Positions 16,725 through 52,608 of a stretch of DNA of 64,000 bases are shown in pieces (within the stretch, counting starts at the first letter, position 1; each line of letters begins with the position of its first letter). The notes under the pieces are model-generated. The model had not been told where the DNA came from, made no database searches, and worked only from the letters and a program-made list of their open reading frames with translations. The translations under genes and the position numbers were made by a program. Source of the DNA: Limnospira fusiformis SAG 85.79 (GTDB lineage: Bacteria > Cyanobacteriota > Cyanobacteriia > Cyanobacteriales > Microcoleaceae); the NCBI RefSeq assembly GCF_012516315.1, contig NZ_CP051185.1, forward strand, positions 4,035,363-4,099,362. Direction: 5' to 3'.

Positions 16725-17309
16725 TTACTTCCCTGTTGACGGCGGCGGGATGATTTTTGTTAGCCAAGTCTCGATTCCTCTTTTAGTGGGTTTTCCTGAT
16801 GCGGTAAATCCCCAAATATCCCGCTTATGTTGGGGACCATAACTAATATGAATGGGGCGATCGCATCCATAAAAATATAAAGAGTCGAAGGGTAAATGAT
16901 GATCTATAATCCAATCAACCAGTTGGTTACTTTCCAGATTTATGATCATAAAATCACAGGAAGCCCCTAATCGAGAACAGTAATATTTGCCTTTTTGGTT
17001 AAGTTCATGGGCTAGATGTTGGTCTAGGTTAGGGGCAACCCTACCGTTTTTGATTCCGGTGTGGTCATCTTTTTTTTCTAGGTATCTTTTCAGGTCCTTA
17101 GAACAAAATCCATAGGTTAACTGAAAGCGATCGCGCCCAAATTCATCAATAATTGGGTCGAGAATTGCTTGATTTAAGTCCTTGATCGCCTCGATACTTT
17201 CTGGCTGTTGTGGGTAAGGATTAATGCGATCGCTATATTTAGCATAAGTTTTTGTACAAGTACAAAACTCTTCTAAAAACAGATATTTCCCCAGTTTAAT
17301 ATTATCCAT
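16725..17309 (-). CDS. Degenerate M15-like (D,D-peptidase fold) protein
   Basis: A 194-aa protein of uncertain function. The segment GKYYCSRLGASCDFMI followed by FDSLYFYGCDRPIHISYGP resembles the two metal motifs of peptidase M15 folds (SxHxxGxAxD and a late HxS). Ser occupies the place of the first zinc-binding His, so peptidase activity is doubtful. There is no signal peptide. It converges with the phosphatase with a one-base gap. Its start codon and first eight codons, with upstream DNA, have been amplified into the 135-bp tandem array immediately upstream, so its promoter environment is unusual. The fold call is inference from motif shape. Confidence 0.5.
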   Translation of the reverse strand: MDNIKLGKYLFLEEFCTCTKTYAKYSDRINPYPQQPESIEAIKDLNQAILDPIIDEFGRDRFQLTYGFCSKDLKRYLEKKDDHTGIKNGRVAPNLDQHLAHELNQKGKYYCSRLGASCDFMIINLESNQLVDWIIDHHLPFDSLYFYGCDRPIHISYGPQHKRDIWGFTASGKPTKRGIETWLTKIIPPPSTGK

Positions 17310-18355
17310 AAATCATGCCCCTAAACCTATCCTCCCTTTCCCAGAGAGCAGCTATATTAACCTGAACGCCCCCTAATTATTAATTATTAATTATTAATTA
17401 TTAATTAAATAGATCGCCTATTTCCCCAGTTTAATATTATCCATAAATCATGCCCCTAAACCTATCCTCCCTTTCCCAGAGAGCAGCTATATTAACCTGA
17501 ACGCCCCCTAATTATTAATTATTAATTATTAATTATTAATTAAATAGATCGCCTATTTCCCCAGTTTAATATTATCCATAAATCATGCCCCTAAACCTAT
17601 CCTCCCTTTCCCAGAGAGCAGCTATATTAACCTGAACGCCCCCTAATTATTAATTATTAATTATTAATTATTAATTAAACAGATCGCCTATTTCCCCAGT
17701 TTAATATTATCCATAAATCATGCCCCTAAACCTATCCTCCCTTTCCCAGAGAGCAGCTATATTAACCTGAACGCCCCCTAATTATTAATTATTAATTATT
17801 AATTATTAATTAAATAGATCGCCTATTTCCCCAGTTTAATATTATCCATAAATCATGCCCCTAAACCTATCCTCCCTTTCCCAGAGGGCAGCTATATTCA
17901 CCTGAACGCCCCCTAATTATTAATTATTAATTATTAATTATTAATTAAACAGATCGCCTATTTTCCCAGTTTAATATTATCCATAAATTATGCCCCTAAA
18001 CCTATCCTCCCTTTCCCAGAGAGCAGCTATATTAACCTGAACGCCCCCTAATTATTAATTATTAATTATTAATTATTAATTAAATAGATCGCCTATTTCC
18101 CCAGTTTAATATTATCCATAAATCATGCCCCTAAACCTATCCTCCCTTTCCCAGAGAGCAGCTATATTAACCTGAACGCCCCCTAATTATTAATTATTAA
18201 TTATTAATTATTAATTAAATAGATCGCCTATTTCCCCAGTTTAATATTATCCATAAATCATGCCCCTAAACCTATCCTCCCTTTCCCAGAGGGCAGCTAT
18301 ATTAACCTGAACGCCCCCTAATTATTAATTATTAATTATTAATTATTAATTAAAT
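17291..18355. repeat. Tandem array 2: exact 135-bp units from a gene 5' end
   Basis: CCAGTTTAAT recurs at 17291, 17426, 17561, 17696, 17831, 17966, 18101 and 18236, exactly 135 bp apart, giving about 7.9 units. Each unit holds the first codons and upstream region of the M15-like gene, a GCCCCC box and the AATTATT heptamer tract (reverse complement of the tract in the other arrays). Only scattered substitutions occur (AAAT/AAAC, GAGAGCAG/GAGGGCAG, one TTTTCCC). At each internal junction the gene copy turns into AGGCGATCTATTTAATTAAT on the minus strand, so every copy encodes only MDNIKLGK followed by a stop. Confidence 0.96.
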
Positions 18356-18428
18356 AGGAGGCTGGTTGATTAATCTTCTGGTTAGCAGAGGTAATTAACA
18401 GCCCAACCCCCCTACATTATCTTCCCCA

Positions 18429-30872: not shown

Positions 30873-31823
30873 ATGAGCATTACTGCATCCAAAATTCCCG
30901 TTTCCGTGCTAATTCCTGCCAAAAATGAACAGGAAAACCTCCCCGCTTGTCTAGCTAGTGTGGCTGTGGCTGATGAAATTTTGGTGGTCGATTCTCAAAG
31001 TAGCGATCGCACTGTGGAAATTTCCGAGAGTCTGGGAGCTAAAGTTGTACAATTCCACTTCAATGGTCAATGGCCGAAAAAGAAAAACTGGTCCTTAGAA
31101 AACCTCCCCTTTCGTAATGAATGGGTGCTAATTGTGGACTGTGACGAACGCATCACCCCCGAATCTTGGCAAGAAATTGCCCAAAAAATCCAAGACCCGG
31201 AATATTCTGGCTATTACATTAATCGTCGGGTATTCTTCCTGGGGAAATGGATTCGCCACGGCGGTAAATATCCCGACTGGAACCTGCGTCTATTCAAGCA
31301 TAAACTAGGTCGCTACGAAAATCTAAACACGGAGAATGTCCGCAATACCGGAGATAACGAAGTACACGAGCACGTAGTTATCTCGGAAGGAAAAGTCGGT
31401 TATCTTCAAGAAGATATGCTTCATGAGGATTTCCGGGATTTGTTCCACTGGATAGAACGCCATAACCGTTATTCTAACTGGGAAGCACGGGTTTACTACA
31501 ATATCCTCACGGGTCAGGACGATAGTAAAACCATTGGGGCTGATTTATTTGGAGATGCAGTCCAGCGGAAACGCTTTTTAAAAACTATTTGGGTCCGACT
31601 GCCCTTTAAGCCTCTGTTGCGATTTATCCTATTCTATATTATCCAACTGGGTTTTTTGGATGGTCGCGCTGGCTATATTTATGGCCGACTATTGAGCCAA
31701 TATGAATATCAAATTGGGGTGAAACTGTACGAATTGCGTCAATTTGGTGGTCAGTTGAATGTGGCTAAAACCACCACAAACACGGTCACGCCTCAGTCTG
31801 TACCTCAAACAGTGGAAAAATGA
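30873..31823 (+). CDS. GT2 family glycosyltransferase B (WaaE/KdtX-like)
   Basis: A 316-aa GT-A glycosyltransferase. The opening SVLIPAKNEQENLPACL, the VVDSQSSDRT loop and the DxD motif IVDCDERITP match the subfamily that includes WaaE-like sugar transferases. GWIRHGGKYPDW-type sequence (seen as KWIRHGGKYPDWNLRLF) and EVHEH are also subfamily marks. The C-terminal part has a hydrophobic amphipathic helix (FKPLLRFILFYIIQLGFLDG) suggesting membrane attachment. It overlaps the following acetyltransferase by four bases (ATGA), implying translational coupling. Probable role is exopolysaccharide or hormogonium-type slime synthesis; acceptor unknown. Confidence 0.85.
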   Translation: MSITASKIPVSVLIPAKNEQENLPACLASVAVADEILVVDSQSSDRTVEISESLGAKVVQFHFNGQWPKKKNWSLENLPFRNEWVLIVDCDERITPESWQEIAQKIQDPEYSGYYINRRVFFLGKWIRHGGKYPDWNLRLFKHKLGRYENLNTENVRNTGDNEVHEHVVISEGKVGYLQEDMLHEDFRDLFHWIERHNRYSNWEARVYYNILTGQDDSKTIGADLFGDAVQRKRFLKTIWVRLPFKPLLRFILFYIIQLGFLDGRAGYIYGRLLSQYEYQIGVKLYELRQFGGQLNVAKTTTNTVTPQSVPQTVEK

Positions 31824-32404
31824 CGAAAACCGACACATCGACAGAAGCCTGGGTTGATCTGCGAAAGTATGATCAATCTGGGTTTGACCGGGGGAAGCCA
31901 GGATGGTTTATTTTGCTGTGGTGGCTGGTTCAGGCGATCGCCTTTCCCCTCACTCCTCACCCGTTTAATAACATTCGCTGTGGGATTTTGCGACTGTTTG
32001 GGGCCAAAATTGGTCAAGGGGTAATTATTCGACCTACCGCTAGGTTTACTTACCCCTGGAAAGTGGCGATCGGTGATTATAGTTGGATTGGTGATGATGT
32101 GGTACTTTATAGCCTAGACCGTATCGAAATCGGTGAGCATTGCGTGATTTCTCAAAAGTCCTATTTGTGTACCGGAAGCCACGATATCCATGACCCCGCT
32201 TTTGGTCTACAAACCGCCTCAATCGCGATCGCCCCTGGGGTGTGGGTGGCTACAGATTGCTTTATCGGACCGGGTGTGGCGATCGGTGCTAATACAGTTG
32301 TCGGCGCTAGATCCAGCGTCTTCAGTGACCTACCAGCAGCCCAAATTTGCTTAGGAACCCCCTGTCGTCCCCATTCCCCCCGAAATCTCATAATTAACAA
32401 TTAA
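31820..32404 (+). CDS. Hexapeptide-repeat O-acetyltransferase (WcaF/HpsU-like)
   Basis: A 194-aa left-handed beta-helix acetyltransferase that would acetylate a sugar of the polysaccharide made by the two preceding transferases. Hexapeptide turns run from IGQGVIIRPTARF through IGDDVVLYSLDRIEIGEHCVI to IGPGVAIGANTVVGARS. The probable catalytic His lies in CTGSHDIHDPAF. The N terminus has a WWLVQAIAFPL hydrophobic segment. The protein resembles WcaF and cyanobacterial HpsU of hormogonium polysaccharide loci. The gene's last codons (IINN) are encoded by the start of the AT heptamer tract that opens array 3. Confidence 0.82.
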   Translation: MTKTDTSTEAWVDLRKYDQSGFDRGKPGWFILLWWLVQAIAFPLTPHPFNNIRCGILRLFGAKIGQGVIIRPTARFTYPWKVAIGDYSWIGDDVVLYSLDRIEIGEHCVISQKSYLCTGSHDIHDPAFGLQTASIAIAPGVWVATDCFIGPGVAIGANTVVGARSSVFSDLPAAQICLGTPCRPHSPRNLIINN

Positions 32405-32408
32405 TAAT

Positions 32409-35218
32409 TAATAATTAATAATTAATAATTATGGGGGCGGGTTCTGTTAGTTGATCGCCTTCCCACCCCACCATATTAATAAACCCGATCCAACTCGGGG
32501 CTGCTGTTATTCATTCATAGTCTTATAGGTCGATACTGCGGAAGGTGAACTGCGGTTGAGGTAGCGGAAAATCCAATACTTAAATACCGCATCTAATATA
32601 ACCGGAAAAGTTGCAATAAAGAGAAAGTTAAAATCTCGACTTTCTGCTACTCCTAAATTTCTAGCCACACTTTCCATAATTACCTCCCATAATAATTAAT
32701 AATTAATAATTATGGGGGCGGGTTCTGTTAGTTGATCGCCTTCCCACCCCACCATATTAATAAACCCGATCCAACTCGGGGCTGCTGTTATTCATTCATA
32801 GTCTTATAGGTCGATACTGCGGAAGGTGAACTGCGGTTGAGGTAGCGGAAAATCCAATACTTAAATACCGCATCTAATATAACCGGAAAAGTTGCAATAA
32901 AGAGAAAGTTAAAATCTCGACTTTCTGCTACTCCTAAATTTCTAGCCACACTTTCCATAATTACCTCCCATAATAATTAATAATTAATAATTATGGGGGC
33001 GGGTTCTGTTAGTTGATCGCCTTCCCACCCCACCATATTAATAAACCCGATCCAACTCGGGGCTGCTGTTATTCATTCATAGTCTTATAGGTCGATACTG
33101 CGGAAGGTGAACTGCGGTTGAGGTAGCGGAAAATCCAATACTTAAATACCGCATCTAATATAACCGGAAAAGTTGCAATAAAGAGAAAGTTAAAATCTCG
33201 ACTTTCTGCTACTCCTAAATTTCTAGCCACACTTTCCATAATTACCTCCCATAATAATTAATAATTAATAATTATGGGGGCGGGTTCTGTTAGTTGATCG
33301 CCTTCCCACCCCACCATATTAATAAACCCGATCCAACTCGGGGCTGCTGTTATTCATTCATAGTCTTATAGGTCGATACTGCGGAAGGTGAACTGCGGTT
33401 GAGGTAGCGGAAAATCCAATACTTAAATACCGCATCTAATATAACCGGAAAAGTTGCAATAAAGAGAAAGTTAAAATCTCGACTTTCTGCTACTCCTAAA
33501 TTTCTAGCCACACTTTCCATAATTACCTCCCATAATAATTAATAATTAATAATTATGGGGGCGGGTTCTGTTAGTTGATCGCCTTCCCACCCCACCATAT
33601 TAATAAACCCGATCCAACTCGGGGCTGCTGTTATTCATTCATAGTCTTATAGGTCGATACTGCGGAAGGTGAACTGCGGTTGAGGTAGCGGAAAATCCAA
33701 TACTTAAATACCGCATCTAATATAACCGGAAATGTTGCAATAAACAGAAAGTTAAAATCTCGACTTTCTGCTACTCCTAAATTTCTAGCCACACTTTCCA
33801 TAATTACCTCCCATAATAATTAATAATTAATAATTATGGGGGCGGGTTCTGTTAGTTGATCGCCTTCCCACCCCACCATATTAATAAACCCGATCCAACT
33901 CGGGGCTGCTGTTATTCATTCATAGTCTTATAGGTCGATACTGTGGAAGGTGAACTGCGGTTGAGGTAGCGGAAAATCCAATACTTAAATACCGCATCTA
34001 ATATAACCGGAAAAGTTGCAATAAAGAGAAAGTTAAAATCTCGACTTTCTGCTACTCCTAAATTTCTAGCCACACTTTCCATAATTACCTCCCATAATAA
34101 TTAATAATTAATAATTATGGGGGCGGGTTCTGTTAGTTGATCGCCTTCCCACCCCACCATATTAATAAACCCGATCCAACTCGGGGCTGCTGTTATTCAT
34201 TCATAGTCTTATAGGTCGATACTGCGGAAGGTGAACTGCGGTTGAGGTAGCGGAAAATCCAATACTTAAATACCGCATCTAATATAACCGGAAAAGTTGC
34301 AATAAAGAGAAAGTTAAAATCTCGACTTTCTGCTACTCCTAAATTTCTAGCCACACTTTCCATAATTACCTCCCATAATAATTAATAATTAATAATTATG
34401 GGGGCGGGTTCTGTTAGTTGATCGCCTTCCCACCCCACCATATTAATAAACCCGATCCAACTCGGGGCTGCTGTTATTCATTCATAGTCTTATAGGTCGA
34501 TACTGCGGAAGGTGAACTGCGGTTGAGGTAGCGGAAAATCCAATACTTAAATACCGCATCTAATATAACCGGAAAAGTTGCAATAAAGAGAAAGTTAAAA
34601 TCTCGACTTTCTGCTACTCCTAAATTTCTAGCCACACTTTCCATAATTACCTCCCATAATAATTAATAATTAATAATTATGGGGGCGGGTTCTGTTAGTT
34701 GATCGCCTTCCCACCCCACCATATTAATAAACCCGATCCAACTCGGGTCTGCTGTTATTCATTCATAGTCTTATAGGTCGATACTGCGGAAGGTGAACTG
34801 CGGTTGAGGTAGCGGAAAATCCAATACTTAAATACCGCATCTAATATAACCGGAAAAGTTGCAATAAAGAGAAAGTTAAAATCTCGACTTTCTGCTACTC
34901 CTAAATTTCTAGCCACACTTTCCATAATTACCTCCCATAATAATTAATAATTAATAATTATGGGGGCGGGTTCTGTTAGTTGATCGCCTTCCCACCCCAC
35001 CATATTAATAAACCCGATCCAACTCGGGGCTGCTGTTATTCATTCATAGTCTTATAGGTCGATACTGCGGAAGGTGAACTGCGGTTGAGGTAGCGGAAAA
35101 TCCAATACTTAAATACCGCATCTAATATAACCGGAAATGTTGCAATAAACAGAAAGTTAAAATCTCGACTTTCTGCTACTCCGAAATGTCTAGCCACACT
35201 TTCCAGAATTACCTCCCA
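32409..35218. repeat. Tandem array 3: ten exact 281-bp units from the pxcA 3' end
   Basis: TCATTCATAG recurs at 32511, 32792, 33073, 33354, 33635, 33916, 34197, 34478, 34759 and 35040, exactly 281 bp apart. Each unit has an AATTAAT heptamer tract, an ATGGGGGCGGG box, about 70 bp of the pxcA downstream region and the last 61 codons of pxcA. The tenth unit is the real gene end. The nine extra copies share CTCCTAAATTTC and TTCCATAATT where the genuine gene has CTCCGAAATGTC and TTCCAGAATT. Copy 5 and the genuine copy share AATGTTGCAATAAACAG against AAAGTTGCAATAAAGAG elsewhere, which suggests exchange within the array. Confidence 0.97.
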
Positions 35219-36457
35219 ACCGTGGGGGGAGTGGAAACCTACGAACATATCAGTTAACAAAATAATGATAAATGCCTTGGCGCTATCACTGAGACCATAA
35301 ATTATATCCCCCATAAATGATTTCAAAACTTGCACTTCTTGCTTGTTGTTAGACAAAATTAACACAAACGTAAACACTGATATAATATCAGCAAAAATGT
35401 TTTTAATAGCATTAGAACTTAATGTGCGATATTCCTCGGCAATTTTGATGGCTTTGGCTTGGGTTCTTTCCTCCAACTCTTCCTCGGTTAATTCTGGTAT
35501 GAAACCCACCATCATCTCAAACTTTAACCTGGCCTCATATCTCTCGATTTCCATCAATGCTTCTTCTTCCATGTCAACATTCATAAATATGGGCGTGTTT
35601 TCATTTACCCAAAATCTATCGACCAAGGGACCAACCACAAAGTTTTTCGACAATTGCTGAGTCAGAAGCGGCACTAAAATCAAAATGAGAATAAATCTAA
35701 TTGCAATAATAGTTTTAACTTTCGATTTCCGATAATCTTTAATGACCTGTTCTTCTGACTCTGGGTTAAGTTCCCGTTTAATGCGAGTCACAGTTCTGAG
35801 CAAAGTTCGAGGTAGAAAGCTAGTGCCGGAGTTTTCAGATTGGAGGTTATCTTTAAGATTATTATCCGCTTTGGGGGGAGAAATAGGGATATCTGAACTG
35901 AGAATAGACTTAGACTTTTGGGGAAGCGAAACCAGTCCATTTTCTGGATCGTTAGGTATCAGAGAACGGCTTTCTAAGTCCTCAAGTTTTACCAGTGCTT
36001 TAGATGTTGATGGTACTTTGCTTGGGGATTTTTTTTGATGATAACGGCTAGTTACAGCATCAATAAATTCTAGTTTTTCACAGACGATCGCAATGGTATC
36101 GGCATCTTGATGGCGATCGTAAATATCATCCTGATTCCGCAACTTTCGATTAAGTTCGGCGGGGTCTATTTGTTCGGAAATGGCGAAAATAGAGCGGCTA
36201 GTGTTAAATTCTGCCAACCGCATTTGAATGACTTGTAAATACCTATTAACCTCCGATTTAAAATAAGACAAGACTCGATCGCTATACTCATCAGAAGACG
36301 ACCCGATCGCCTCACCATGAAAATGCTCATTTTCCAGAGAGCGGATTTTGAGAGCCGCATCTAATGCCTGATCTAAAGCTCGATCAGGAGTATCACGAAA
36401 CCACTGATTAGCGCGATTGAGAAACCGCTTAAACTGAGTCCAATTTGAGGATGTCAT
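35036..36457 (-). CDS. pxcA: Proton extrusion protein PxcA (CemA family)
   Basis: A 473-aa inner-membrane protein of the PxcA/CemA family, needed in cyanobacteria for light-induced proton release and acclimation to pH and light change. The N-terminal 230 residues are hydrophilic (coiled-coil and Ser/Pro-rich linker). Four hydrophobic segments follow: IIAIRFILILILVPLLTQQ, IFADIISVFTFVLIL, AFIIILLTDMFVGFHSPHGW and [20 protein letters not shown]. The sequence FVGFHSPHGWEVILE is a family hallmark. It converges with the acetyltransferase gene across array 3, which contains nine extra copies of its last 61 codons. It diverges from the P-loop protein gene. Confidence 0.92.
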   Translation of the reverse strand: MTSSNWTQFKRFLNRANQWFRDTPDRALDQALDAALKIRSLENEHFHGEAIGSSSDEYSDRVLSYFKSEVNRYLQVIQMRLAEFNTSRSIFAISEQIDPAELNRKLRNQDDIYDRHQDADTIAIVCEKLEFIDAVTSRYHQKKSPSKVPSTSKALVKLEDLESRSLIPNDPENGLVSLPQKSKSILSSDIPISPPKADNNLKDNLQSENSGTSFLPRTLLRTVTRIKRELNPESEEQVIKDYRKSKVKTIIAIRFILILILVPLLTQQLSKNFVVGPLVDRFWVNENTPIFMNVDMEEEALMEIERYEARLKFEMMVGFIPELTEEELEERTQAKAIKIAEEYRTLSSNAIKNIFADIISVFTFVLILSNNKQEVQVLKSFMGDIIYGLSDSAKAFIIILLTDMFVGFHSPHGWEVILESVARHFGVAESRDFNFLFIATFPVILDAVFKYWIFRYLNRSSPSAVSTYKTMNE

Positions 36458-39319: not shown

Positions 39320-42300
39320 ATGACCAGTTCAACCATTCCCACCGCCCCCGCTCAACTTGCGTTGCGAGTATCTCCTGGAGATCAAATTCTCAGCCTCAAC
39401 CAAGTTGTCCTCATCTTTCCCGCCGAACCAATACCCAACAGATTTGAAACCTTCCCTGGGTCCATCACCAACATATTACCCGCCTCCAACGGCTTAGGGG
39501 ATACCCTACTCGGAGAGGGAGGAGTCACACTATTTGTTCCCGATGAGCCAGGCTTTGAAGCTACAATTCAAGGTAGCAGTGAAACCGTAATAGTAGTTAG
39601 AGCCGGCGGACAAGACCAAGGATTCCTCACCGTTCTAAATCGAGAACCCGGTAGACTCCAAAGCCGTGCAGACGGCTCCTTTGTCTTTATCCCTGACGAT
39701 GCAGGAGACCCAGAGCCAGACCCAGGGACTGACCCATCACCAGATCCAGGAACTGACCCAGGAACTGACCCAGAACCAGAACCCAGGGAAAATCAACCCC
39801 CCATAGCCAACGATGTTTTTGTCACCACCACCCAGGGACAAGACACCTTTTTTGATGTACTCTTCAACGACACAGACCCAGACGGAGATACCCTCAGCGT
39901 TCAAAACTTCAGCAGCACCGCCAACGGAGCCCTAATCTTTAACGGTGCGGGAATCTTCACCTATCGACCCAACCCAGACTTTTTTGGTACTGATGGCTTT
40001 AGTTACAATGTCACCGACGGGACAGACTCCGACCTAGCGCAAGTGGTGATCTCAGTTCAACCTACCGACCTTCCCCAAATTATCGAAGGAATAGGTCAAG
40101 GAACTACCGGAGATGACTCGATTATCGGCTCATCAGGAGATGATGTCATCAGTGGTTTAGCTGGAAACGATACCATCTTCGGTTTGGCAGGAAACGACCT
40201 CCTACAAGGTGGGGAAGGCGATGACCTACTATTCGGCAACCAAGGGAACGATACCCTAGACGGTGGACCGGGTAATGATACCGCCTATGGAGGTCAGGGA
40301 GATGACCTGATGATTGGTGGGGATGGTAATGACTTACTATTCGGCAACCTCGGCAACGATACCCTATTGGGGGGACCTGGGGCAGATTCTATGTATGGCG
40401 GGGACGGCAACGACTGCATTCGGGGTGGTATTGGGAATGACTTGATTTTTGGCGACAAGGGTAATGATATCCTCTGGGGAGATGACGGCAACGACACGAT
40501 TTATGGTGGCGAGGGAGATGATTTAATCTTCGGTAATGATGGTGCTGATCTATTATTTGGAGGAGTTGGAAACGATACCATTTTTGGTGGACCAGGAAAC
40601 GATACTATCATCGGCGGCGAAGGTGATGATCAAATTGCTGGAGAAGTGGGAGATGATTTATTATTTGGAGGTCCCGGAGCCGATACCCTAACAGGTGGTT
40701 CCGGTAGTGATACCTTTGCGATCGCCGAAGGTAGTGGAGGCGGTAGCGTAGAAGAAGCTAATGTCATTAATGACTTCACTGGTGGGACTGATAAAATTGG
40801 TTTGTTGGGGAACCTCACCTTTGAACAACTCAGCATTACCCAAAGCGAGGAAAACGCCGGGAATGCTATTATCCGTAATGGTAGTGATGGAGAGTTCCTA
40901 GCAGTTCTCATTGGGGTTAACAGCAATAACTTAACCGCCTCCGATTTTGTCCCCGTCGTCGGCTTGGACATCGGCATACCCACACCACCCACACCGACAC
41001 CACCGACACCACCGACACCACCGACACCACCGACACCACCGACACCCACACCGACACCACCGACACCCACACCGACCCCTCCTGTACCTCCACTTCCGCC
41101 ACCCCCACCCCCTATCAACTTGCCACCTAACGCAGTTGATGACCGGGTGAGACGAGCAGTGAACCAACCAGTGACCTTTGACGTACTCGCCAATGATAGC
41201 GACCCAGAAGGGGAACCTATTAGGGTGATTGAATTTACCATGACCACTGGGGGGGACTTAATCCAAAGTCCTGCTGACCCCAGAGGCGGAACATTTACTT
41301 ATACTCCTAATCCTGGCTTTGTAGAGCCGGAAACCTTTACCTATACCATAACTGATGGTAGTGGTAACACTGCTCAAGCCACTGTATTTATACAGGTTAA
41401 TCAACCGCCAGAATTAGTAGTTAATCGCGGGATTATCCTACTGCCAACTCAGCAACAAACCATCACAGTTAATAACCTATTTGCCGAAGACCCAGACAAT
41501 CTTCCGACTGAGGTATTTTATGAGGTATTAAGAGAGCCTCAAGCTGGTATTATGCAGAGATTGGGGACTACTTCCACCGATCGCATCAGAACTGGCGATC
41601 GATTCAGCCAAGAAAGCATTAATACTGGTGCTATTATCTATACCTCTGGTAGAGAGTCTGGCGTAGATGATTTAGTATTCCGACTCACAGATAGTGTGGC
41701 CACCTTACCCCAGCAAATCTTTAGTATCTCAGTCGTGGATGACTTCATTCAGGGAACTGATGAAGATGACAACATAGAGGGTACCGCCTTGAGTGAGTAC
41801 ATTCAAGGATTTGGTGGTAATGATACCCTCGTGGGTGTTGGCGGTCGAAATATCCTCGATGGAGGTCCGGGAAATGACTCCATAGTGGGGGGAAGTGGTA
41901 ATGATGTCATTGATGGTGGAGAAGGAAACGATACCCTATTGGGTAACGAAGGTAACGACTCCATCTTTGGTGGACCCGGTAACGATTCCATCATTGGCGG
42001 TAGCGGAATTAACAGTCTATTTGGAGAAGGTGGAGACGATACCATTATCGGCGGTGATGATGGTAATTTACTCAGTGGTGGTGTTGGTAATGACTCCCTC
42101 ACTGGTGGCACAGGTAACGATACCATTTTTGGTGGTGATGGTAATGACACCATAATTACTGAGCGAGGCGATAACCAATTATTTGGAGATGACGGTAACG
42201 ATTTAATCTTCGGTGGAATTGGTCGAGATCTCATTCAAGGCGGACCAGGCAATGATACCCTAATTGCTGGCTCTGGTAATAACACCATTTTTGGTGGACT

Positions 42301-43078
42301 GGGTAACGATTCTATCGTTGGCGGCGAGGGAGATGACACCCTGTTTGGTGGTGAAGGTAACGACACCATTGATGGAATTGGCGGTGATAACAGCATCTTT
42401 GGCGGCGCTGGGAATGATTCGATTATAGCCGGACCCGGTAATGATACCGTATTTGCTGGACCAGGTAATGATCAGGTCTTTGGTGGTGATGGTAACGACC
42501 TCATCTTCGGAGACAGTGGCAATGATACCATCTTTGGTGGCAGTGGAGATGATACCATATCTGGGGGAGCAGGTTCTGACCTACTCACAGGAAATTCCGG
42601 TAACAATGTCTTCTACTACCTCAACCCCGGCGAGGGAGTCGATATCATCACTGATTTTAAACAACCAGGAAACGATCGCTTCTTAATTGTATCTGGAGAA
42701 AACAATTTTGATGGCTTAGTTCCCACCGTTGGCACCGCCGCCGCACCCCTCCAAAGTGCTATCATTAGCGCTCTAGGCTCCGAAGGTACCGACATTAGCG
42801 GACGACAATTAATTATCTTCCAAGACACCTTTGATAATATTCAAGCCGTTAACGCCGCGCTCAAAAATCAAAGGGGTTCAGATGGCGGTTCCGCTTTGTT
42901 CCTCTACCGGAATAACCTCACCTATCCAGGTTTCCAAGGTAACTATATTCTCGGTTTTGACCCGGACTTATCTGATGATAGTTTACCCGCCTTTGACCTG
43001 GCTATTCTGCAATCAATTGATCCTTCGACCGATAACATTAGTACCATTCTCGGCTCTAATGATTTCATCATCATCTAG
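39320..43078 (+). CDS. RTX calcium-binding surface protein A
   Basis: A 1252-aa protein predicted to be exported by a type I system and folded by Ca2+ outside the cell. Order: an N-terminal domain of about 130 residues shared with the next gene, an acidic PDPGTD linker, a cadherin/Big-like domain (PPIANDVFVTT...FNDTDPDGD), a first RTX block of about 200 residues of GGxGxDxxx nonapeptides, a PTPPTPP linker (bases 40978-41100), a second Big/cadherin region, a second RTX block (about 805-1090) and a C-terminal domain ending GSNDFIII. No N-terminal signal peptide, as expected for type I secretion. AGGAG precedes the ATG. No ABC/HlyD export genes are in the window. Confidence 0.85.
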   Translation: MTSSTIPTAPAQLALRVSPGDQILSLNQVVLIFPAEPIPNRFETFPGSITNILPASNGLGDTLLGEGGVTLFVPDEPGFEATIQGSSETVIVVRAGGQDQGFLTVLNREPGRLQSRADGSFVFIPDDAGDPEPDPGTDPSPDPGTDPGTDPEPEPRENQPPIANDVFVTTTQGQDTFFDVLFNDTDPDGDTLSVQNFSSTANGALIFNGAGIFTYRPNPDFFGTDGFSYNVTDGTDSDLAQVVISVQPTDLPQIIEGIGQGTTGDDSIIGSSGDDVISGLAGNDTIFGLAGNDLLQGGEGDDLLFGNQGNDTLDGGPGNDTAYGGQGDDLMIGGDGNDLLFGNLGNDTLLGGPGADSMYGGDGNDCIRGGIGNDLIFGDKGNDILWGDDGNDTIYGGEGDDLIFGNDGADLLFGGVGNDTIFGGPGNDTIIGGEGDDQIAGEVGDDLLFGGPGADTLTGGSGSDTFAIAEGSGGGSVEEANVINDFTGGTDKIGLLGNLTFEQLSITQSEENAGNAIIRNGSDGEFLAVLIGVNSNNLTASDFVPVVGLDIGIPTPPTPTPPTPPTPPTPPTPPTPTPTPPTPTPTPPVPPLPPPPPPINLPPNAVDDRVRRAVNQPVTFDVLANDSDPEGEPIRVIEFTMTTGGDLIQSPADPRGGTFTYTPNPGFVEPETFTYTITDGSGNTAQATVFIQVNQPPELVVNRGIILLPTQQQTITVNNLFAEDPDNLPTEVFYEVLREPQAGIMQRLGTTSTDRIRTGDRFSQESINTGAIIYTSGRESGVDDLVFRLTDSVATLPQQIFSISVVDDFIQGTDEDDNIEGTALSEYIQGFGGNDTLVGVGGRNILDGGPGNDSIVGGSGNDVIDGGEGNDTLLGNEGNDSIFGGPGNDSIIGGSGINSLFGEGGDDTIIGGDDGNLLSGGVGNDSLTGGTGNDTIFGGDGNDTIITERGDNQLFGDDGNDLIFGGIGRDLIQGGPGNDTLIAGSGNNTIFGGLGNDSIVGGEGDDTLFGGEGNDTIDGIGGDNSIFGGAGNDSIIAGPGNDTVFAGPGNDQVFGGDGNDLIFGDSGNDTIFGGSGDDTISGGAGSDLLTGNSGNNVFYYLNPGEGVDIITDFKQPGNDRFLIVSGENNFDGLVPTVGTAAAPLQSAIISALGSEGTDISGRQLIIFQDTFDNIQAVNAALKNQRGSDGGSALFLYRNNLTYPGFQGNYILGFDPDLSDDSLPAFDLAILQSIDPSTDNISTILGSNDFIII

Positions 43079-43101
43079 CCATAGTTCCTGATTTCCCAAA
43101 G

Positions 43102-43135
43102 CAGGGGAGAACAGTTAAACCCATATCCTCCCCTG
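43102..43135 (+). terminator. Hairpin after RTX gene A
   Basis: CAGGGGAG (43102-43109) and CTCCCCTG (43128-43135) form an 8-bp perfect stem with an 18-nt loop, followed by TTTCAATATT. It lies 24 bp after the stop codon of the first RTX gene and 47 bp before the next start, so it may terminate or attenuate between the two. Confidence 0.55.
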
Positions 43136-43181
43136 TTTCAATATTCCCCCTAATACTTGATCACTATTAAGGAGTTCCATC

Positions 43182-46100
43182 ATGACTGGTGTTAATATCC
43201 CTACCACCCTCGCTCTCATCTCTCGCCGAGTTATTCCTGGTAATAGTCTACTAAACACTAATAATATTGAATTAATTTTTCCGGCTGACCCCATTCCTGG
43301 TAAATTTCAAACCTTTGGGGGGACTATCGGGGATACCATGACCGGAGCCAATGGGGAACTCTTATTTATTCCTGAACAACCGGTTTTACAAGCTGTTTCG
43401 ATCGCTACCAGTTCCATTGTTTATCTTGAACAAACTGACTCAGGCTTGCAAAGTCTCACAGGACAAGTCGGAGAAACTTTACCTGGTGGTGGCGGGGAAA
43501 TTCTCTTTCGACCAGAGGGTTTTGAGTTTCCCGAACCGGAACCCGCACCAACTCCCGCACCAACTCCCGCACCAACTCCCGCACCAACTCCCGCACCCGA
43601 CCCAGAACCCGCACCCGACCCAGAACCCGCACCCGACCCAGAACCCGCACCCGACCCAGAACCAGAAATCATCACCATACAAGGTTCAGGAGTTGGTACA
43701 GAGGGAAACGATACCATTCTGGGTAGTGATTTTAATGATGCGATCGATGGTGTAGGTGGTAATAACATCATTTTCGGTTTAGGGGGAGATGACTTTATCC
43801 GAGGGGGTGATGGTGCAGACTCCATTAATGGCAATGACGGTAATGATACCATCTATGGTGGCGACGGAGATGATTGTATCCGGGGTGGTCAGGGTAATGA
43901 TTTAATTTTTGGTGAAGGTGGGAATGACCTGTTATTCGGTGATAAAGATGCTGATATCCTCTTCGGTGTCTCTGGTAATAACACCATGTATGGAGGTCAA
44001 GGTAATGACAGCCTCATAGGGGGTGAAAATGACGACCTGATGTTTGGCGATAAGGGTAGCGATACATTAGTAGCTGGTGGTGGCAATAATACCCTTTATG
44101 GTGGCGCTGATAATGATTTCCTGTTTGGTGGGACTGGTAACGATTTACTCTTTGGTGATGATGGTAATGATGAACTCGTTGGTGGTAAGGGGAATGATAC
44201 TATCTTTGGCGGTCCCGGTGACGACATAATTTTTGGCGGTGATGGTAATGATATATTAAGAGGCGGAAAGGGTAACGATCGCCTCTTTGGAGATGAAGGT
44301 AATGATTTACTAGAAGGCGGTCGTGGTGTTGATACCCTCACTGGTGGTGGTGGTAGAAATATATTTGTTGTTGGCTTAGTTGTCAGTGCGTCTGAAGGTG
44401 GTGGTAGTGTAATTACAGGTACCACTGGCGGCGCTTCCCCAGAATTAGCAGATTTGATCACCGACTTTCAAGCTGGTGTTGACAAAATTGGATTAACCGG
44501 AGGACTCACCTTTGCGGATATTGAAATTCGTCGTGGTGAAGGTGCCAATATCAGAAATACATTGCTCATAGACCGCAATACCGGAGACTTTTTAGCAGTT
44601 TTATTAAATGTAGATCCAGCCATGCTGGACGAAACAGATTTTCTCATCGACCCAGACGGACCTTTAGTAGATCCTGAACCTGAACCTGAACCTGAACCCG
44701 GACCTGAACCTGAACCCGAACCTGAACCTGAACCTGAACCCGAACCCGAACCCGAACCCGAACCTGAACCCGGACCCGACCCAGAACCCGAACCCGACCC
44801 AGAGCCAGAACCTAGTCCGACTCCGACTCCGACTCCTAGTCCTGAACCGACTCCCACTCCTCCTGTTCCCACTCCTCCCCCGGTTCCCACGCCAACCCCG
44901 ACCCCGACTCCGACTCCGACCCCGACTCCGACTCCGACTCCTTCTGATGGTATTGAAGCCGGAAATGATACCCTTAGTGTGGCACAGAACAGTTCATTAA
45001 ACGTTAATAATTCCACTCTGTTAGAGAATGATAGTCCGTCAAGACCAGGGGATATTCTCACCATCACAGATCTACCATCAACCACCAGCGAAGGTGGCAC
45101 AATCGAGCGGACTAATTCATCTTTTATCTATACACCACCCAGGGATTTTGTGGGGGTAGATAGTTTCGTTTATACGGTGCGAGATAGTGCTGGTCAAACT
45201 GCTACTGCTACAGTTTTCATTAATGTAGAGTTAGTTAATGAGCCTCCTGTTATTGACCTCAATTCTGCCGCACCTGGGAACGATTTTAGCACCGACTTTA
45301 CCGAAGGAGATTCTCCTGTCCGTATTGGCGCACTGGGTAGTATTAGCATTAGCGACCCAGATGGTGATGATATAGTTTCAGCCACTGTTACTATTACCAA
45401 CCCCGCCAATGGAGAGGAAGAAGGTTTATCAATTACCGGGCTTTTATCTCCCAATATTACCGCCGATGCTTATGACCCAAATACGGGGGTTTTACTACTC
45501 ACTGGAACTGCGCCTCCCGTAGCTTATGAAGATGCCATTTCCCGAATATTTTATAATAACACATCCCTAGCACCAGGGACAAGCGATCGCCTAATTACCG
45601 TCATCCTTAGTGATGGCATTGAAGACAGTAATCCCGCCAATTCTATCATTAGGATTACCGCCATTAATAACCCCCCGGAAAATACAGTTCCCGAACCACA
45701 AGAAACCGATGGAGAAACCCCCTTAGTATTCAGTGAAGAGAACAACAATTCCATTAGTATTGCCGACCCTGATGCTGGTAGTAGCCCAGTAGAAGTTAGC
45801 CTAGTTGCCACCAACGGCATTTTAACAGTCGGCACCAATACAGAAGGGGTGCAAATTAACGGCAGCGACACCGACACCCTAACCCTTACAGGTGTAATAG
45901 ATTCACTTAACCGCGTCCTAGATGGTTTAACCTTTACCCCCACCGAGGGATTTAATGCCCAAAACGGACAGTTAGAAATTACCACCAACGACCTCGGAAA
46001 CACCGGAGAAGGCGGTCCTTTAACGGCTACAGATACCATCACCATTGAAACCCTAAACCGACCACCCGTCGCGGAAGATGATCAGGTTGATGCTTTACTA

Positions 46101-49100
46101 AATACTGCCATAAACATCCCTGGGGAAACTTTACTAGCTAATGATAGCGACCCTGATGGTGATGTTCTGACCATCATAGAAGTGGCTAATGCTAATAACG
46201 GTACAGTAGAACTAGACCCAGAAGCCGGTGATGTGTTATTTACCCCGGACTCGGACTTTCTCGGAGAAGCTAGTTTTGAGTACACCATTAGTGATGGACG
46301 TTCAGGTACTGACACAGCCACAGTGACGGTGCTGGTAAAATCTCTCCCTACGGCTGTTGATGACGAGAATAACACCCTTGCTAACCAAATTTTGAGTGTT
46401 GAGTCATCGGAGGGAGTTCTCGCCAATGACTTCGATTTAGACGGGGATCCGTTAACGGTTGTGGCTTTTGATGGCAGGAGCGCTCAGGGTGCTACAGTAC
46501 AAGTTAATCCCGATGGTAGTTATACATTCGACCCCAGAAATGCTAATGCTTTATTGGCGTTGCGGGAAGAACAGGAGATAGTTGATACTTTCACGTACAC
46601 TATCGAGGATATTGATGGTAATCAGGCTACGGCTACCGTCCGCATTACTGTAACTGGAGTTAATGAACCTCCTGTTGCTGTCGATGATAGCAATAGTATC
46701 CTGGCGAATACAGTCTTAACTGTAAATGCGGCTCAAGGAGTTTTGGTTAATGATACCGACCCGGAAGGGGGTCTGTTAGAGGTGGTTGGTTTTGACTCTA
46801 ATAGTTCTCGGGGTGCTACAGTTACCGTTAATTCTAATGGTAGCTACACCTACAACCCAACCGCAGTAGAATCATTTATAGCATTGCGGTCTGGTGCCAC
46901 CTTAGAAGATACCTTCACCTATACAGTAGCTGATGATATGGGTAGTACAGCCACCGCTACTGTCACCATTACTGTCACCGGGGTTAATGAACCACCCAGT
47001 AACAACGTACCAGAAACCCAAGCCACTAATACTGATACACCGCTGGTATTTAGCACAGAAACTGATAATGCTATTACCATTGCTGACCCAGACGCGGGGG
47101 ATGACCCGTTAGTGGTGACTATAGTGGCGACCAATGGGACAGTTACCCCAGGGGAAAATACCGAAGCGGTGGAAGTTACTGGCGAAAACACGGAAACTCT
47201 CACCTTGACTGGTACTCTCTCAGCTATTAACCAAGCCTTAGAAGGGTTAACATTTACCCCATTACCAGAGTTTCTCAACGAAAATGGTAGCTTGGAAATT
47301 ACGACTAATGACCAAGGTGGTGGAGATCCTGATAATCCTTTAACGGCTACAGATACCATCACCATTGAAACCCTAAACCGACCACCCGTCGCGGAAGATG
47401 ATCAGGTTGATGCTTTACTAAATACTGCCATAAACATCCCTGGGGAAACTTTACTAGCTAATGATAGCGACCCTGATGGTGATGTTCTGACCATCATAGA
47501 AGTGGCTAATGCTAATAACGGTACAGTAGAACTAGACCCAGAAGCCGGTGATGTGTTATTTACCCCGGACTCGGACTTTCTCGGAGAAGCTAGTTTTGAG
47601 TACACCATTAGTGATGGACGTTCAGGTACTGACACAGCCACAGTGACGGTGCTGGTAAAATCTCTCCCTACGGCTGTTGATGACGAGAATAACACCCTTG
47701 CTAACCAAATTTTGAGTGTTGAGTCATCGGAGGGAGTTCTCGCCAATGACTTCGATTTAGACGGGGATCCGTTAACAGTTGTGGCTTTTGATGGCAGGAG
47801 CGCTCAGGGTGCTACAGTACAAGTTAATCCCGATGGTAGTTATACATTCGACCCCAGAAATGCTAATGCTTTATTGGCGTTGCGGGAAGAACAGGAGATA
47901 GTTGATACTTTCACGTACACTATCGAGGATATTGATGGTAATCAGGCTACGGCTACCGTCCGCATTACTGTAACTGGAGTTAATGAACCTCCTGTTGCTG
48001 TCGATGATAGCAATAGTATCCTGGCGAATACAGTCTTAACTGTAAATGCGCCTAGAGGTGTGCTGAGTAATGATACAGACCCGGAAGGGGGTCCGTTAGA
48101 GGTGGTTGATTTTGACTCTAATAGTTCTCGGGGTGCTACAGTTACGGTTAATCCTAATGGTAGCTACACCTTTGACCCAAGGGAGGTAGAATCATTTATA
48201 GCATTGCAGGAAGGGGAAACTTTAGAAGATACGTTTACTTACACAGTAGCTGATGATATGGGTCTTACAGCCACGGCTACCGTCACCATTACTGTCACCG
48301 GGGTTAATGAACTTCCTGTTGTGGATCTGAGTCCTGATGATTCGGGAACCCTTAATTTTGCCACTACTTTCACCGAAAAAGAGCCACCAGTTTTGATCGC
48401 TTCTGGTGATGGTGTTAGGATTACCGACCCTGATAATGATAGCCTAGTGGGCGCTACTGTCAGGATTACTAATCTGTTAGATGGGGATTTTGAGGAATTA
48501 GCAGTTAATACGGGTGATACCGATATTACGGCTAATTATAATCAAACTACGGGGGTGTTAACACTCTCTGGGGAAAATTCCCTGAGTGTTTACGAAGAGG
48601 TTTTGGCAACGGTAACATATATAAATCGTTCCCTCGATCCAAATACAAGCGATCGCATTATTGAAGTCGTGGTAAATGATGGCAGGGATGATAATAACCC
48701 CCTAGCTGTTAGCACTATTTCTGTCGTGGCGGTTAATGACCCCCCTGTAATTGATTTAGATACCACTAACAGTGTCGTCGGCGGTAACAACTTCGCTACT
48801 ACCTTTGAAAGGGGAGGAGAGCCAGTGGCGATCGCTTCTAATAATGTCAGCATTACCGACCCAGATAATACTACCATCCAATCCGCAACTATTACTCTGA
48901 CCAATCCCATCAATGGGGAAGATGAGGGTTTATCCGTCATTGGCGGACTTCCGGGGGGTATCACTGCCGAAACCTATAATCCCGAAACGGGGGTTCTTAG
49001 CCTCTCTGGTAGTGCCTCTTTAGCCAACTATCAAACAGCTATTTCCCGCGTGTTTTACAACAATACCTTAAATCGTCCTGACACTACAAACCGCATAGTA

Positions 49101-50018
49101 ATAGTGGTTGTGAATGATGGCAGTGATGACAGTAATGAACCTCGGACAACTATTGATATCCTGCTTATAAATCGGCCTCCGGTGGCTGTGGATTATGGTC
49201 CAGTTTACACCAACGCTAGAACTCAATTCTCCTTTAACCCCGTTTCTAATGATACCGATCCAGATGAAGATCCGCTTACCTTAGAAAGTATCAGAGGCAC
49301 GTCTGACTTCGCACTGGTAACTACTAGCGGGAATTTAATCAATTATACTCGACTTACTAATGACACACTAACTGATGAGTTCTCCTATTTCATTAATGAT
49401 GGACAGGGTGGAACCGCCACCGCTATGATTAGCGTTGAATGGCTACCCCGACCTACTGATGATCCACAAACAGTTACAGGGGGTGAATTTAGCGACTTTT
49501 TGACTGGTGGCGCTGGTAATGATACCCTAATTGGTCTAGGGGGTAATGATACCTTATCGGGATTGGGTGGTAATGATAGCCTAGTTGGTGGTTTGGGGAG
49601 TGATTGCTTGGTCGGTGGTACTGGTAATAACATTTTTGCCTATGAAACCCCTGATGATGGTGGCGGCACCGCATTTAATGCTGATAGTACAGGTAGTATT
49701 GATGAACAAATTGGCACCGGGTTATATGATACGATCGCCGATTTCACAGGTCTGGGAGATGCCGAAGGAGATGCGATCGCTTTATCTAGTGATTTGATTC
49801 CCAATACTGACCGCATTCTCCTAACCGTTCAAACTGATATTTCATCTAATGTCTTGAATGGAAATAATCTGTTTGCTTATGATGATGGTAGCCATACTTA
49901 CATCATTTATGATGGTGATGGTGATAATACTACCGGGGACGACTCCCAGATTTTAGCCAGACTCCAAAATATCACAGGGATAACCGAGTTATCACCCGAT
50001 GATTTTCTGATTTTTTAG
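43182..50018 (+). CDS. Giant RTX/cadherin/VCBS surface protein B
   Basis: A 2278-aa secreted, adhesin-like protein. The first 115 residues match the N terminus of protein A ([12 protein letters not shown]...[14 protein letters not shown]). Then come an AP/EP linker, RTX nonapeptides (about 170-410), a long EP then TP linker (bases 44665-44945), and some fifteen hundred residues of Ig-like modules: Big/cadherin-type ([12 protein letters not shown]), VCBS-type ([15 protein letters not shown]...[10 protein letters not shown]) and cadherin-like [11 protein letters not shown] units. A short RTX block and a domain ending SPDDFLIF close it. A 715-bp segment is present twice, 1320 bp apart. AGGAG precedes the ATG. 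Likely roles are cell surface or filament adhesion. Confidence 0.85.
43540..43670 (+). repeat. Pro/Ala-Thr-Glu linker microsatellite
   Basis: Direct 12-bp repeats (CCCGCACCAACT type) followed by 18-bp repeats (GCACCCGACCCAGAACCC type) encode APTPAPTP and then [10 protein letters not shown]. In-frame unit gain or loss would change linker length without breaking the gene. Confidence 0.85.
44665..44945 (+). repeat. Pro-Glu and Pro-Thr hexanucleotide linker
   Basis: A run of CCTGAA/CCCGAA hexamers encodes PEPEPE for roughly 45 residues, followed by CCGACT/CCCACT hexamers encoding PTPTPT. Hexamer units keep the frame, so copy number can vary freely. Confidence 0.88.
46016..46730 (+). repeat. 715-bp direct repeat, copy 1 (copy 2 at 47336-48050)
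   Basis: This block and 47336-48050 are offset by exactly 1320 bp (440 codons). Reading them side by side I find one difference (GTTAACGGTT versus GTTAACAGTT near 46456). Sequence on both sides is similar at the protein level but clearly diverged in DNA. The sharp borders point to recent duplication or gene conversion of a Big plus VCBS module. Confidence 0.93.
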
Positions 50019-50026
50019 AGAGTCTC

Positions 50027-50047
50027 ACCCGCCTATAACAGGCGGGT
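50027..50047 (+). terminator. Intrinsic terminator-like hairpin after RTX gene B
   Basis: ACCCGCCT (50027-50034) pairs with AGGCGGGT (50040-50047), a perfect 8-bp stem with a 5-nt loop, 8 bp after the stop codon of the giant gene. It may also serve the convergent CarS-like gene. The T-rich tail is weak. Confidence 0.65.
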
Positions 50048-50116
50048 ATGTCCTGCTTTTGGGGAGGAATATAGCCAACTCCAGAACCCGCCTCTACTCG
50101 TGAATATGGTATGATA

Positions 50117-50674
50117 TTACTTCAACCCTAACCTTTTTCGTAGCCAAGTTGCACCCATAAATAATAAGGGAGTGGCGATTAAACCCACACTGATAAAATG
50201 TAGGGGAAAGTGGAAGTAAAAATACCATAAAATCAGAACTCCATAGGTCGAGTCTATATGGTCAAACAGATAAGTAATGATATTCGCTTCTTCTCCCGGG
50301 GCAATATTTAGCCGACGTTTGATATAAGAGTTGGGCAATTCTGACAGGTTAAATACCAACCCGGTTAGCAACCCAAATTCAACCGCCTTAAAGTCTTGGA
50401 AATGGATAGGAAAATCCGGGTTAATTCCCGCCAATGATTCTAGGAATTGAAACCCGAATACACTCACCATAAAAGTGAGGGGTAGACTAATGAGACCCCG
50501 CCATTTTTTGTTTTCGCCAAACCATTCTTTTTGCACCGGGAAGTTTAATAATTGAAACGGTGGAGTTTTCCATAAGAATGCTTCTAAAACTCCTGCCACA
50601 AATAACCCGCAGGCTATCCACATCAAATTCAGTAAGTCCCAGGTTAGCATTGATAATATATCAGTTCTTGTCAT
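50117..50674 (-). CDS. CarS-like (CDP-archaeol synthase family) membrane protein
   Basis: A 185-aa integral membrane protein with about five hydrophobic helices. The motifs WFGENKKWRGL, LPNSYIKRRLNI and YLFDHIDSTYG match the spacing of the CarS/CDP-diglyceride synthase superfamily, where charged residues bind metal and CTP. Enzymes of this family activate lipid alcohols or phosphatidate as CDP-lipids. In a bacterium without archaeal lipids the substrate is unknown. The gene converges with giant protein B and stands alone. The family call is by motif memory. Confidence 0.6.
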   Translation of the reverse strand: MTRTDILSMLTWDLLNLMWIACGLFVAGVLEAFLWKTPPFQLLNFPVQKEWFGENKKWRGLISLPLTFMVSVFGFQFLESLAGINPDFPIHFQDFKAVEFGLLTGLVFNLSELPNSYIKRRLNIAPGEEANIITYLFDHIDSTYGVLILWYFYFHFPLHFISVGLIATPLLFMGATWLRKRLGLK

Positions 50675-51364
50675 GGCATGAGATTAATAGAGTCAATTTA
50701 TTATCCATTATAAATTATCCCGCCCCCATACTGTATTATTAATGGGATATCGTCGCTTAATAGGATTCCCTGTAGTAGAGCGATCGCTTTTTGGCTCCCG
50801 CATCAAAGGGCTATTTCACATCAACTATCCGGCATCATCAGACCCCAGTCCCAGCCTCAAAAAGTTGCACAAATCGGATATAAAAATTGATGGAGGTGTG
50901 ATATACTCGTGTCATGGGTTTACTAAAGCCCTGCCTAATCATCTCGTTTTCCCAATCAGAAACCGAGACCAATGACTCCTCCCTGGTTTCGGGGTTATCC
51001 TCTGAACCTCCGGGGAATCGAGTCTACCTAATCCCATCTGGTCAGGAAACAATCCAATATATTCTCAATCAAGCTGTGTGTGCAGTTGTTAGCTGAACAC
51101 AGACGGGCTGCGATTTATTGACTGAATAATCTGGATAATTACGACCAGTTTCCGAGATTCACGTCGTGTCTCTCTCCGAGGCTGTATTTGGCTCAAGTAG
51201 TTGAGTTTTTTCCCATGCAGATTGATGGGGGTTTTTTGTGCTGTCAAAAATCCCACACCAACCATTAAACCTGCCAACCTCTTGACTATTATCAGCCAAT
51301 CCCCAACTTATTCCAGATGATTTTCCTGACTCATAAATAAAGGGGAAACACAGCCATAACTAAG
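50675..51364. other. Intergenic region, no convincing gene
   Basis: About 690 bp with only short overlapping frames lacking ribosome-binding sites or recognisable domains. One HIP1 octamer lies at 50780. The composition is mixed, and it may hold decayed coding sequence, but I cannot assign any. Confidence 0.4.
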
Positions 51365-51708
51365 ATGATGTCAAATCCCAAAACTTTCACCATTCCGTAT
51401 TCCCGCCATTTCCGAGAATGGCTAGACCCACAGCAACTCAGCCTAGGACTCACCACCTATCAAACCAACCGCCTCTGTCTCAGAGGACTCCAACCCGACC
51501 GCCAAATCTACACCCCATCTCGGAATTTGACCGTCCCATGACAATTCAGGCTACCTCAGACCGCCTCTATGTCCTGGCTGCCACTCACCCCACTGGGCCC
51601 GACCCCAGAGGGGAGGGAGTCAGGGTCATAGAACTTCAGACCCACCCCCTCATTCCCCAACAGGAGCAGGCTGGAAAAACAGTTTTTCCCTATACCACTG
51701 CATCTTGA
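51365..51708 (+). pseudogene. TIGR03032-like protein fragment, frameshifted
   Basis: Starting at ATG 51365, the frame reads FREWLDPQQLSLGLTTYQTN, which resembles the N terminus of TIGR03032-type proteins (WL..q.lSL..TTYQtn). That frame ends at TGA 51539-51541. A second frame continues the homology with PISEFDRPMTIQATSDRLYVLA and stops at 51708 after unrelated sequence. So there is at least one frameshift near 51510-51535 and loss of the remaining C-terminal part. It directly precedes the sulfotransferase gene. Function of the family is not established. Confidence 0.7.
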
Positions 51709-51744
51709 GTCCATAGCTGCCCAAGTCTAAAATTCCGAGCCAAA

Positions 51745-52608
51745 ATGTCTTTATCAACCCCAACCCTCCATAAAAATATCATCTATGTGACCGGATTACC
51801 CCGGTCTGGTTCAACTCTCACCTGTCAACTGCTGGGAGAACATCCAGCCATTTATAGTCCCGGTCACAGTTCCCCCTTACTCAGTGGGATTAAAACCCTG
51901 CAACGCCACCTGAGTGATAACGAGTTTTTGCTCTCCCAACTCGACCATCAATTTGAACCGGTGTATCAACGGCTGTTGAATGCCTATCGGGGATTTATCA
52001 ACGGTTGGTTTGCCGAAACCGAGAAAAACTGGGTCGTTGATAAAAATCGAGGTTGGCTGAACTCCCTGGATTTAGCCCTACACCTAGACCCCAACTGTCG
52101 CCTGGTGGTTTGTGTCAGGGAACTGGGACAAATTTATGGTTCCATTGAACAGCAACACCAGAAGACTCTCCTGCTAGACTTTCCCGATGACTTAGCCAAT
52201 CTCGCCCCTTACCAACGCTGTGAGCGGCTGTTTGCCCCTCAGGGAGTCGTTGGCGGTCCTCTGGAAGCCATTCAGGGGCTACAGGAGAGAACTCCAGAGC
52301 AGCAAGAACGGTTATTTTTCGTCGTTTTCGAGCATTTGATGAGCCAACCCCTGGAAGTCATGGGGGACTTATTCACCTGGTTGAACCTAGAACCCGTGAA
52401 GATTGACCCCCAAAACCTAACGGTGCGACCCTCAGAAGCGGACAGTTATTACCGCTTCAAATATCTCCATCAAACCTATCCCCAAATTCAGCCCCCAGGG
52501 AAACATCCGATTTCCTCTCGGATGCAAGTGGAACTGCAAACCTCTTATCGCTGGTTTTACGAGTTGTTCTATCCGGGACTCTTACCCACTGTAACAGGAG
52601 ACTCCTGA
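51745..52608 (+). CDS. Sulfotransferase family protein
   Basis: A 287-aa soluble enzyme predicted to transfer sulfate from PAPS. The 5'-phosphosulfate loop GLPRSGSTL is at residues 17-25 and the 3'-phosphate-binding region is represented by RLVVCVRELGQIYGSI near 120-135. KNWVVDKNRGW supplies a probable catalytic-side lysine. Related cyanobacterial enzymes sulfate polysaccharides or small molecules; the acceptor is unknown. It lies downstream of the TIGR03032-like remnant and upstream of the Gly-rich surface protein, which makes a cell-surface substrate conceivable but unproven. Confidence 0.82.
   Translation: MSLSTPTLHKNIIYVTGLPRSGSTLTCQLLGEHPAIYSPGHSSPLLSGIKTLQRHLSDNEFLLSQLDHQFEPVYQRLLNAYRGFINGWFAETEKNWVVDKNRGWLNSLDLALHLDPNCRLVVCVRELGQIYGSIEQQHQKTLLLDFPDDLANLAPYQRCERLFAPQGVVGGPLEAIQGLQERTPEQQERLFFVVFEHLMSQPLEVMGDLFTWLNLEPVKIDPQNLTVRPSEADSYYRFKYLHQTYPQIQPPGKHPISSRMQVELQTSYRWFYELFYPGLLPTVTGDS

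Follow-up and report, generated by a model that had tools for sequence, protein, structure and literature searches.

A probably homogenised tandem array behind pxcA in Limnospira fusiformis and its association with TAATTAA heptad tracts

Limnospira fusiformis is an edible cyanobacterium known as "spirulina". The window analysed here is a stretch of 64,000 bp from strain SAG 85.79 (NZ_CP051185.1, 4035363–4099362), the genome of which is one contig of 6,423,694 bp. The pxcA gene (window positions 35036–36457, minus strand) encodes an intact proton extrusion protein of the CemA family with 473 residues, as shown by its matches to the curated models NCBIfam NF002703 (588 bits against a cut-off of 526) and Pfam CemA (334 bits). 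Downstream of pxcA and in the same sense lies a tandem array of 10.0 units of 281 bp (32409–35218, minus strand), which faces the convergent hpsU gene for a hormogonium polysaccharide acetyltransferase (31820–32404, plus strand). The last 56 codons and the stop codon of pxcA are contained in unit 10, the genuine gene end (34938–35218, minus strand). The left edge of the array is a TAATTAA heptad tract (32390–32431, plus strand). The hpsU stop codon (32402–32404) is embedded in this tract (32390–32404), and several other heptad arrays of the genome start within about 60 bp of gene stop codons.

As read from the sequence, each unit consists of a TAATTAA heptad tract, a dispersed palindromic repeat of about 80 bp, the pxcA 3′ UTR and the last 56 codons of pxcA. 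Along the minus strand, the order in each unit is the 56 codons, the stop codon, a short hairpin that is broken in unit 9, the palindromic repeat and the heptad tract. Unit positions 2–80, which hold the palindromic repeat, match many other arrays in the SAG 85.79 genome. The heptads, present at the array edge and within every unit, are tandem 7-bp units in intergenic DNA, as expected of STRR sequences, and the tract is one component of the 281-bp unit rather than the whole of it. TRF reports a period of 281, 10.0 copies and 99% matches at 32409–35218, and slicing the array every 281 bp yields ten head-to-tail units of equal length, in agreement with the constant period noted earlier. An array of this kind cannot arise by chance. 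With units of constant period arranged head to tail, and with copies closer to each other than to their source, it shows two properties of a satellite-like concerted array.

The preliminary description spoke of ten exact units, which is correct for their length but not for their bases. Units 1, 2, 3, 4, 7 and 8 are letter-identical, and the remaining units differ by 1–5 bases: unit 6 carries 131T, unit 9 carries 92T, unit 5 carries 201T and 213C, and unit 10 carries 201T, 213C, 246G, 251G and 269G (window positions 35138, 35150, 35183, 35188 and 35206). Three of the substitutions relative to the gene (246, 251 and 269) are found in all nine extra units, and the other two in eight of them. Unit 5 (33533–33813, minus strand) is a mosaic, being gene-like at T 33733 and C 33745 and copy-like at the other three sites; AATGTTGCAATAAACAG is present in units 5 and 10 only, as had been noticed for copy 5. 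An alignment of the units thus confirms the earlier variant map and shows that the units in the assembly are not all identical.

Near-identical units of 281 bp would give short reads no unique place, and polishing may therefore misplace variants, so that the copy number or the variants of units 5, 6 and 9 could be wrong. The genome has, however, been closed with nanopore reads longer than 35 kb at 114x coverage (PMC8085491), and such reads exceed the array more than ten times in length, which makes collapse or misassembly of the array unlikely. Since the separately sequenced genome of Arthrospira sp. PCC 9108 also holds similar arrays, an assembly or polishing artefact is extremely improbable.

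At the sites matching 269, 251 and 246, outgroup genes carry a Leu codon, CAT and TTT or TTC, respectively. Judged from these sequences, the gene has kept the ancestral state at sites 269 and 251 and the copies have changed; the same is probably true of site 246, where Leu is about as frequent as Phe among 78 homologues. Eight of the nine copies share derived variants around the interior unit 5, which is ancestral at two sites, supporting homogenisation of the array. In crude models, the unit-5 pattern appears in none of 200,000 simulated arrays that grow by duplication of single units and in about 0.1% of those that evolve by block duplication and deletion. The mosaic would fit an exchange of blocks as well as conversion by the gene over a tract of 13 bp or more, and two diagnostic sites are too few to separate conversion proper from block exchange. 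All five differences between gene and copies fall in the 81 bp adjoining the edge of homology to the gene (P ~0.002 over the whole unit and ~0.02 over its coding part). This gradient fits an exchange process that keeps the interior uniform and works poorly near the edge of homology; it fits equally error-prone copying or mutations at the original breakpoint, from which the same gradient is expected. Together, the interior ancestral unit, the simulations and the clustering at the edge support the proposal in the preliminary description of homogenisation by unequal exchange or conversion.

Each of the nine copies contains an open reading frame of 56 codons, the first at 32507–32677 (minus strand) and the others at intervals of 281 bp up to 34755–34925; these are identical or nearly so, with an Ala to Thr change in that of unit 6. 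The start codon arises from a Leu to Met change at site 269 that is common to all nine copies; outgroups have Leu codons there, and Leu occupies the position in 75 of 78 homologues. By direct reading, every copy has a Shine-Dalgarno-like GGGAGG at a distance of 5 nt upstream of the new ATG (32683–32688, minus strand, in the first), a sequence that stems from the conserved codons for GWEV in pxcA. The encoded peptide matches positions 174–229 of the CemA profile with 93.7 bits. In one alternative reading, the nine units would work as a set of genes for 56-residue membrane peptides that equal the C-terminal end of PxcA and could bind or tune it. In its favour are the spacing of GGGAGG and a derived ATG in nine of nine copies, the open frame in all of them and the profile match. 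At 99% identity, however, open frames are expected anyway, and other heptad arrays copy unrelated, mostly noncoding sequence. A search of the minus strand of the array found no sigma-70-like promoter site. Moreover, all 78 homologues have His at position 7, where each of the nine copies has Asn, and the change of this invariant histidine points to decay or relaxed constraint. The copies have three nonsynonymous and two synonymous changes, against one and six for the live gene end compared with PCC 9108; together with the replaced histidine, this pattern, drawn from few sites, is not that of purifying selection. A working gene set therefore appears very unlikely, and the predicted frames would be by-products whose start codon was probably gained by chance.

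A terminator-like hairpin, CCCGAGTTGGATCGGG followed by TTTATT (32484–32499, minus strand, in the first unit), is found in nine of ten units; in unit 9 the 92 G>T change breaks the stem. According to the preliminary description, any read-through RNA from pxcA would include nine further copies of its 3′ coding end. The orientation of the array is right for this, but the hairpin in nine of ten units counts against it. An Rfam search of the array gave no match to a known structured RNA family at the gathering score. Selection might act at the RNA level if the repeated hairpins and heptads formed a transcription barrier between the convergent pxcA and hpsU genes and prevented read-through antisense RNA. 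Besides the hairpins of the nine units, this would agree with the position of many heptad arrays near stop codons between convergent genes and with the presence of another hairpin array at this spot in PCC 9108. The hairpin is short, however, and its T run is poor; the folding of the element is not superior to that of shuffled sequences (z −0.5); arrays occur at gene starts as well; and the nine hairpin hits represent one site that has been copied. We regard a barrier function as unlikely.

The association of heptad tracts with tandem arrays was surveyed over 1.97 Mb of the genome in two contiguous segments (1–1,575,000 and 4,005,363–4,399,362), using clustered heptad tracts of at least 21 bp and tandem arrays with a period of at least 40 bp. 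Twenty-two of 27 heptad clusters touch tandem arrays, whereas points placed at random in intergenic DNA would give 4.7. Of the five remaining clusters, three have an array no more than about 300 bp away. In 1000 trials of random placement, the maxima in the two segments were 9 and 6; the observed numbers are 15 and 7. The association depends on the length of the tract: none of 11 clusters with a longest tract of 12–13 bp is in an array, as against 23 of 25 with at least 28 bp (p = 1e-7). Long heptad tracts in L. fusiformis are thus nearly always inside amplified pieces, and the tract may start the event or ride along with it. The units of the heptad arrays have periods of 92–680 bp and, once dispersed palindromes are set aside, are for the most part unrelated in sequence; the copied material is a 3′ gene tail in some, a 5′ start in others and nothing but intergenic repeats in many. 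Two further examples lie in the window. One has about six copies of a unit of ~188 bp (2129–3523) taken from the 3′ tail of a 969-residue ORF on the minus strand, and each of its joints carries the 10-bp direct repeat CATCAACAAT. The other has eight units of 135 bp (17284–18357) that copy the 5′ start of a 194-residue ORF on the minus strand. Since units elsewhere are unrelated, and copy 3′ tails and 5′ starts alike, DNA and not mRNA appears to be the template; copying of gene tails through reverse transcription is ruled out by the arrays of 5′ starts. The preliminary description treated the array as a feature of pxcA and missed the large genome-wide class, nearly always tied to TAATTAA tracts, to which it belongs.

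The largest heptad array seen is intergenic and has 26.3 copies of 234 bp, extending over 6.1 kb (L. fusiformis 568314–574462). In an array of 3.2 units of 680 bp (4350535–4352715), each unit holds a whole ORF of 184 residues, so complete ORFs are amplified too. A second kind of tandem DNA occurs within the window at 39320–57089, where one or more large ORFs contain RTX-like repeats of 27 bp (9 residues) together with coding tandem repeats rich in proline and aspartate.

In the sister species, Arthrospira sp. PCC 9108 (CP066886), pxcA is intact (92%) without copies of its tail, and the spacer between pxcA and hpsU holds a different palindrome array. The PCC 9108 counterpart of the array at 2129–3523 is another array, with units of 234 bp, and that of the array at 17284–18357 is a single copy. 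With different arrays at two orthologous spots and a single copy at the third, none of the three arrays in the window is shared. Searches for an exact 22-base heptad pattern gave 564 occurrences in L. fusiformis and 10 in PCC 9108, and no other genome searched within the order had more than 12. A tentative hypothesis, possible but not the likelier case, is that a process specific to L. fusiformis uses long TAATTAA tracts as start points to seed arrays of 92–680 bp from adjacent DNA, including gene ends, and that the loci have turned over since the split from PCC 9108. The array density is 60 per Mb in L. fusiformis and 64 per Mb in PCC 9108, which is nearly without heptads; this similarity counts against the heptad-linked amplification favoured below. 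In other cyanobacteria, as sampled by 79 pxcA neighbourhoods in which draft assemblies may hide arrays, the density is about threefold lower (22 per Mb) and arrays make up 0.5% of the DNA, compared with 5–6% in both Limnospira genomes. The richness of both in arrays relative to other cyanobacteria suggests that the genus amplifies intergenic DNA readily. None of 20 heptad tracts of 21–63 bp in other genera is in an array (seven from contigs larger than 1 Mb and 13 from smaller draft contigs that could hide arrays), which rules out heptads as a sufficient cause.

Loss of a gene for hairpin or mismatch processing was considered and rejected, as L. fusiformis has mutS, which scores over the cut-off, and an SbcC-like gene, which falls just short of it. 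xseA was not found in this genome, and its absence explains nothing yet because several relatives also lack it. In PCC 9108, a mutS1 match that is intact in L. fusiformis is split into two overlapping pieces (2770512–2772985), reflecting either disruption of this mismatch-repair gene or an error in the sequence. The 26-base pxcA joint has no match among viral contigs, and a plasmid search with two units returned nothing beyond ordinary pxcA homologues carried by cyanobacterial plasmids.

These observations lead with good confidence to the interpretation that the array is a recent and most likely neutral product of local tandem amplification and homogenisation, and that many heptad-bearing spots have undergone the same process. 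The joints suggest that an illegitimate duplication would first have connected the heptad side of the pxcA–hpsU spacer to a site within pxcA some 57 codons ahead of the stop codon. Microhomology of at most 2 bp at this joint counts against such a step, whereas the joints of the second array have their 10-bp direct repeat. The resulting direct repeat of 281 bp could then have grown by slippage or unequal exchange, and exchange or conversion would keep the units uniform except near the edge of their homology to the live gene, as in the variant pattern described above. The same course may be supposed for many heptad-bearing intergenic spots, as found over the 1.97 Mb surveyed, where the heptad tract would mark or help amplification and would not suffice alone. 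As the added copies lie beyond its stop codon, pxcA stays intact. The array thus most likely has no function of its own and is one of many unstable tandem arrays in the genome, although neutrality is weakly tested by the few variable sites.

STRR is the name given to cyanobacterial heptanucleotide repeats. Such heptamer repeats have been reviewed (PMC4679880), and the TAATTAA tracts likewise consist of seven-base direct repeats in intergenic DNA, but here the tract is only part of a unit of 92–680 bp that is itself repeated. Genomes of Arthrospira and Limnospira are rich in tandem sequences, which account for more than 300 kb in PCC 8005 according to a review (PMC11395459). The pxcA-tail array is one instance of this abundance of head-to-tail repeated DNA in the same genus, for which it is ordinary. 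For these tandem-rich genomes, no description of the heptad link, of units composed of gene ends or of the pxcA locus was found, nor did the open-access literature yield anything on heptad-associated arrays in Arthrospira or Limnospira. The link between tract length and arrays, absent in the other genera sampled, offers a testable lead on the tandem-rich, hard-to-assemble spirulina genomes. As a clean case in which the 3′ end of a live gene is copied behind its own stop codon, the locus also makes the boundary between homogenised and protected sequence readable. A known likeness is the triplicated promoter and 5′ end of anaB in Anabaena sp. WA102, which was found by long reads (PMC4907049): in both, near-identical tandem copies of a gene end and its flank stand beside an intact gene. 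The anaB case has three copies of about 0.6 kb of the 5′ end with its promoter at one locus, whereas ten 281-bp copies of a 3′ end lie behind pxcA and related arrays are found at many loci.
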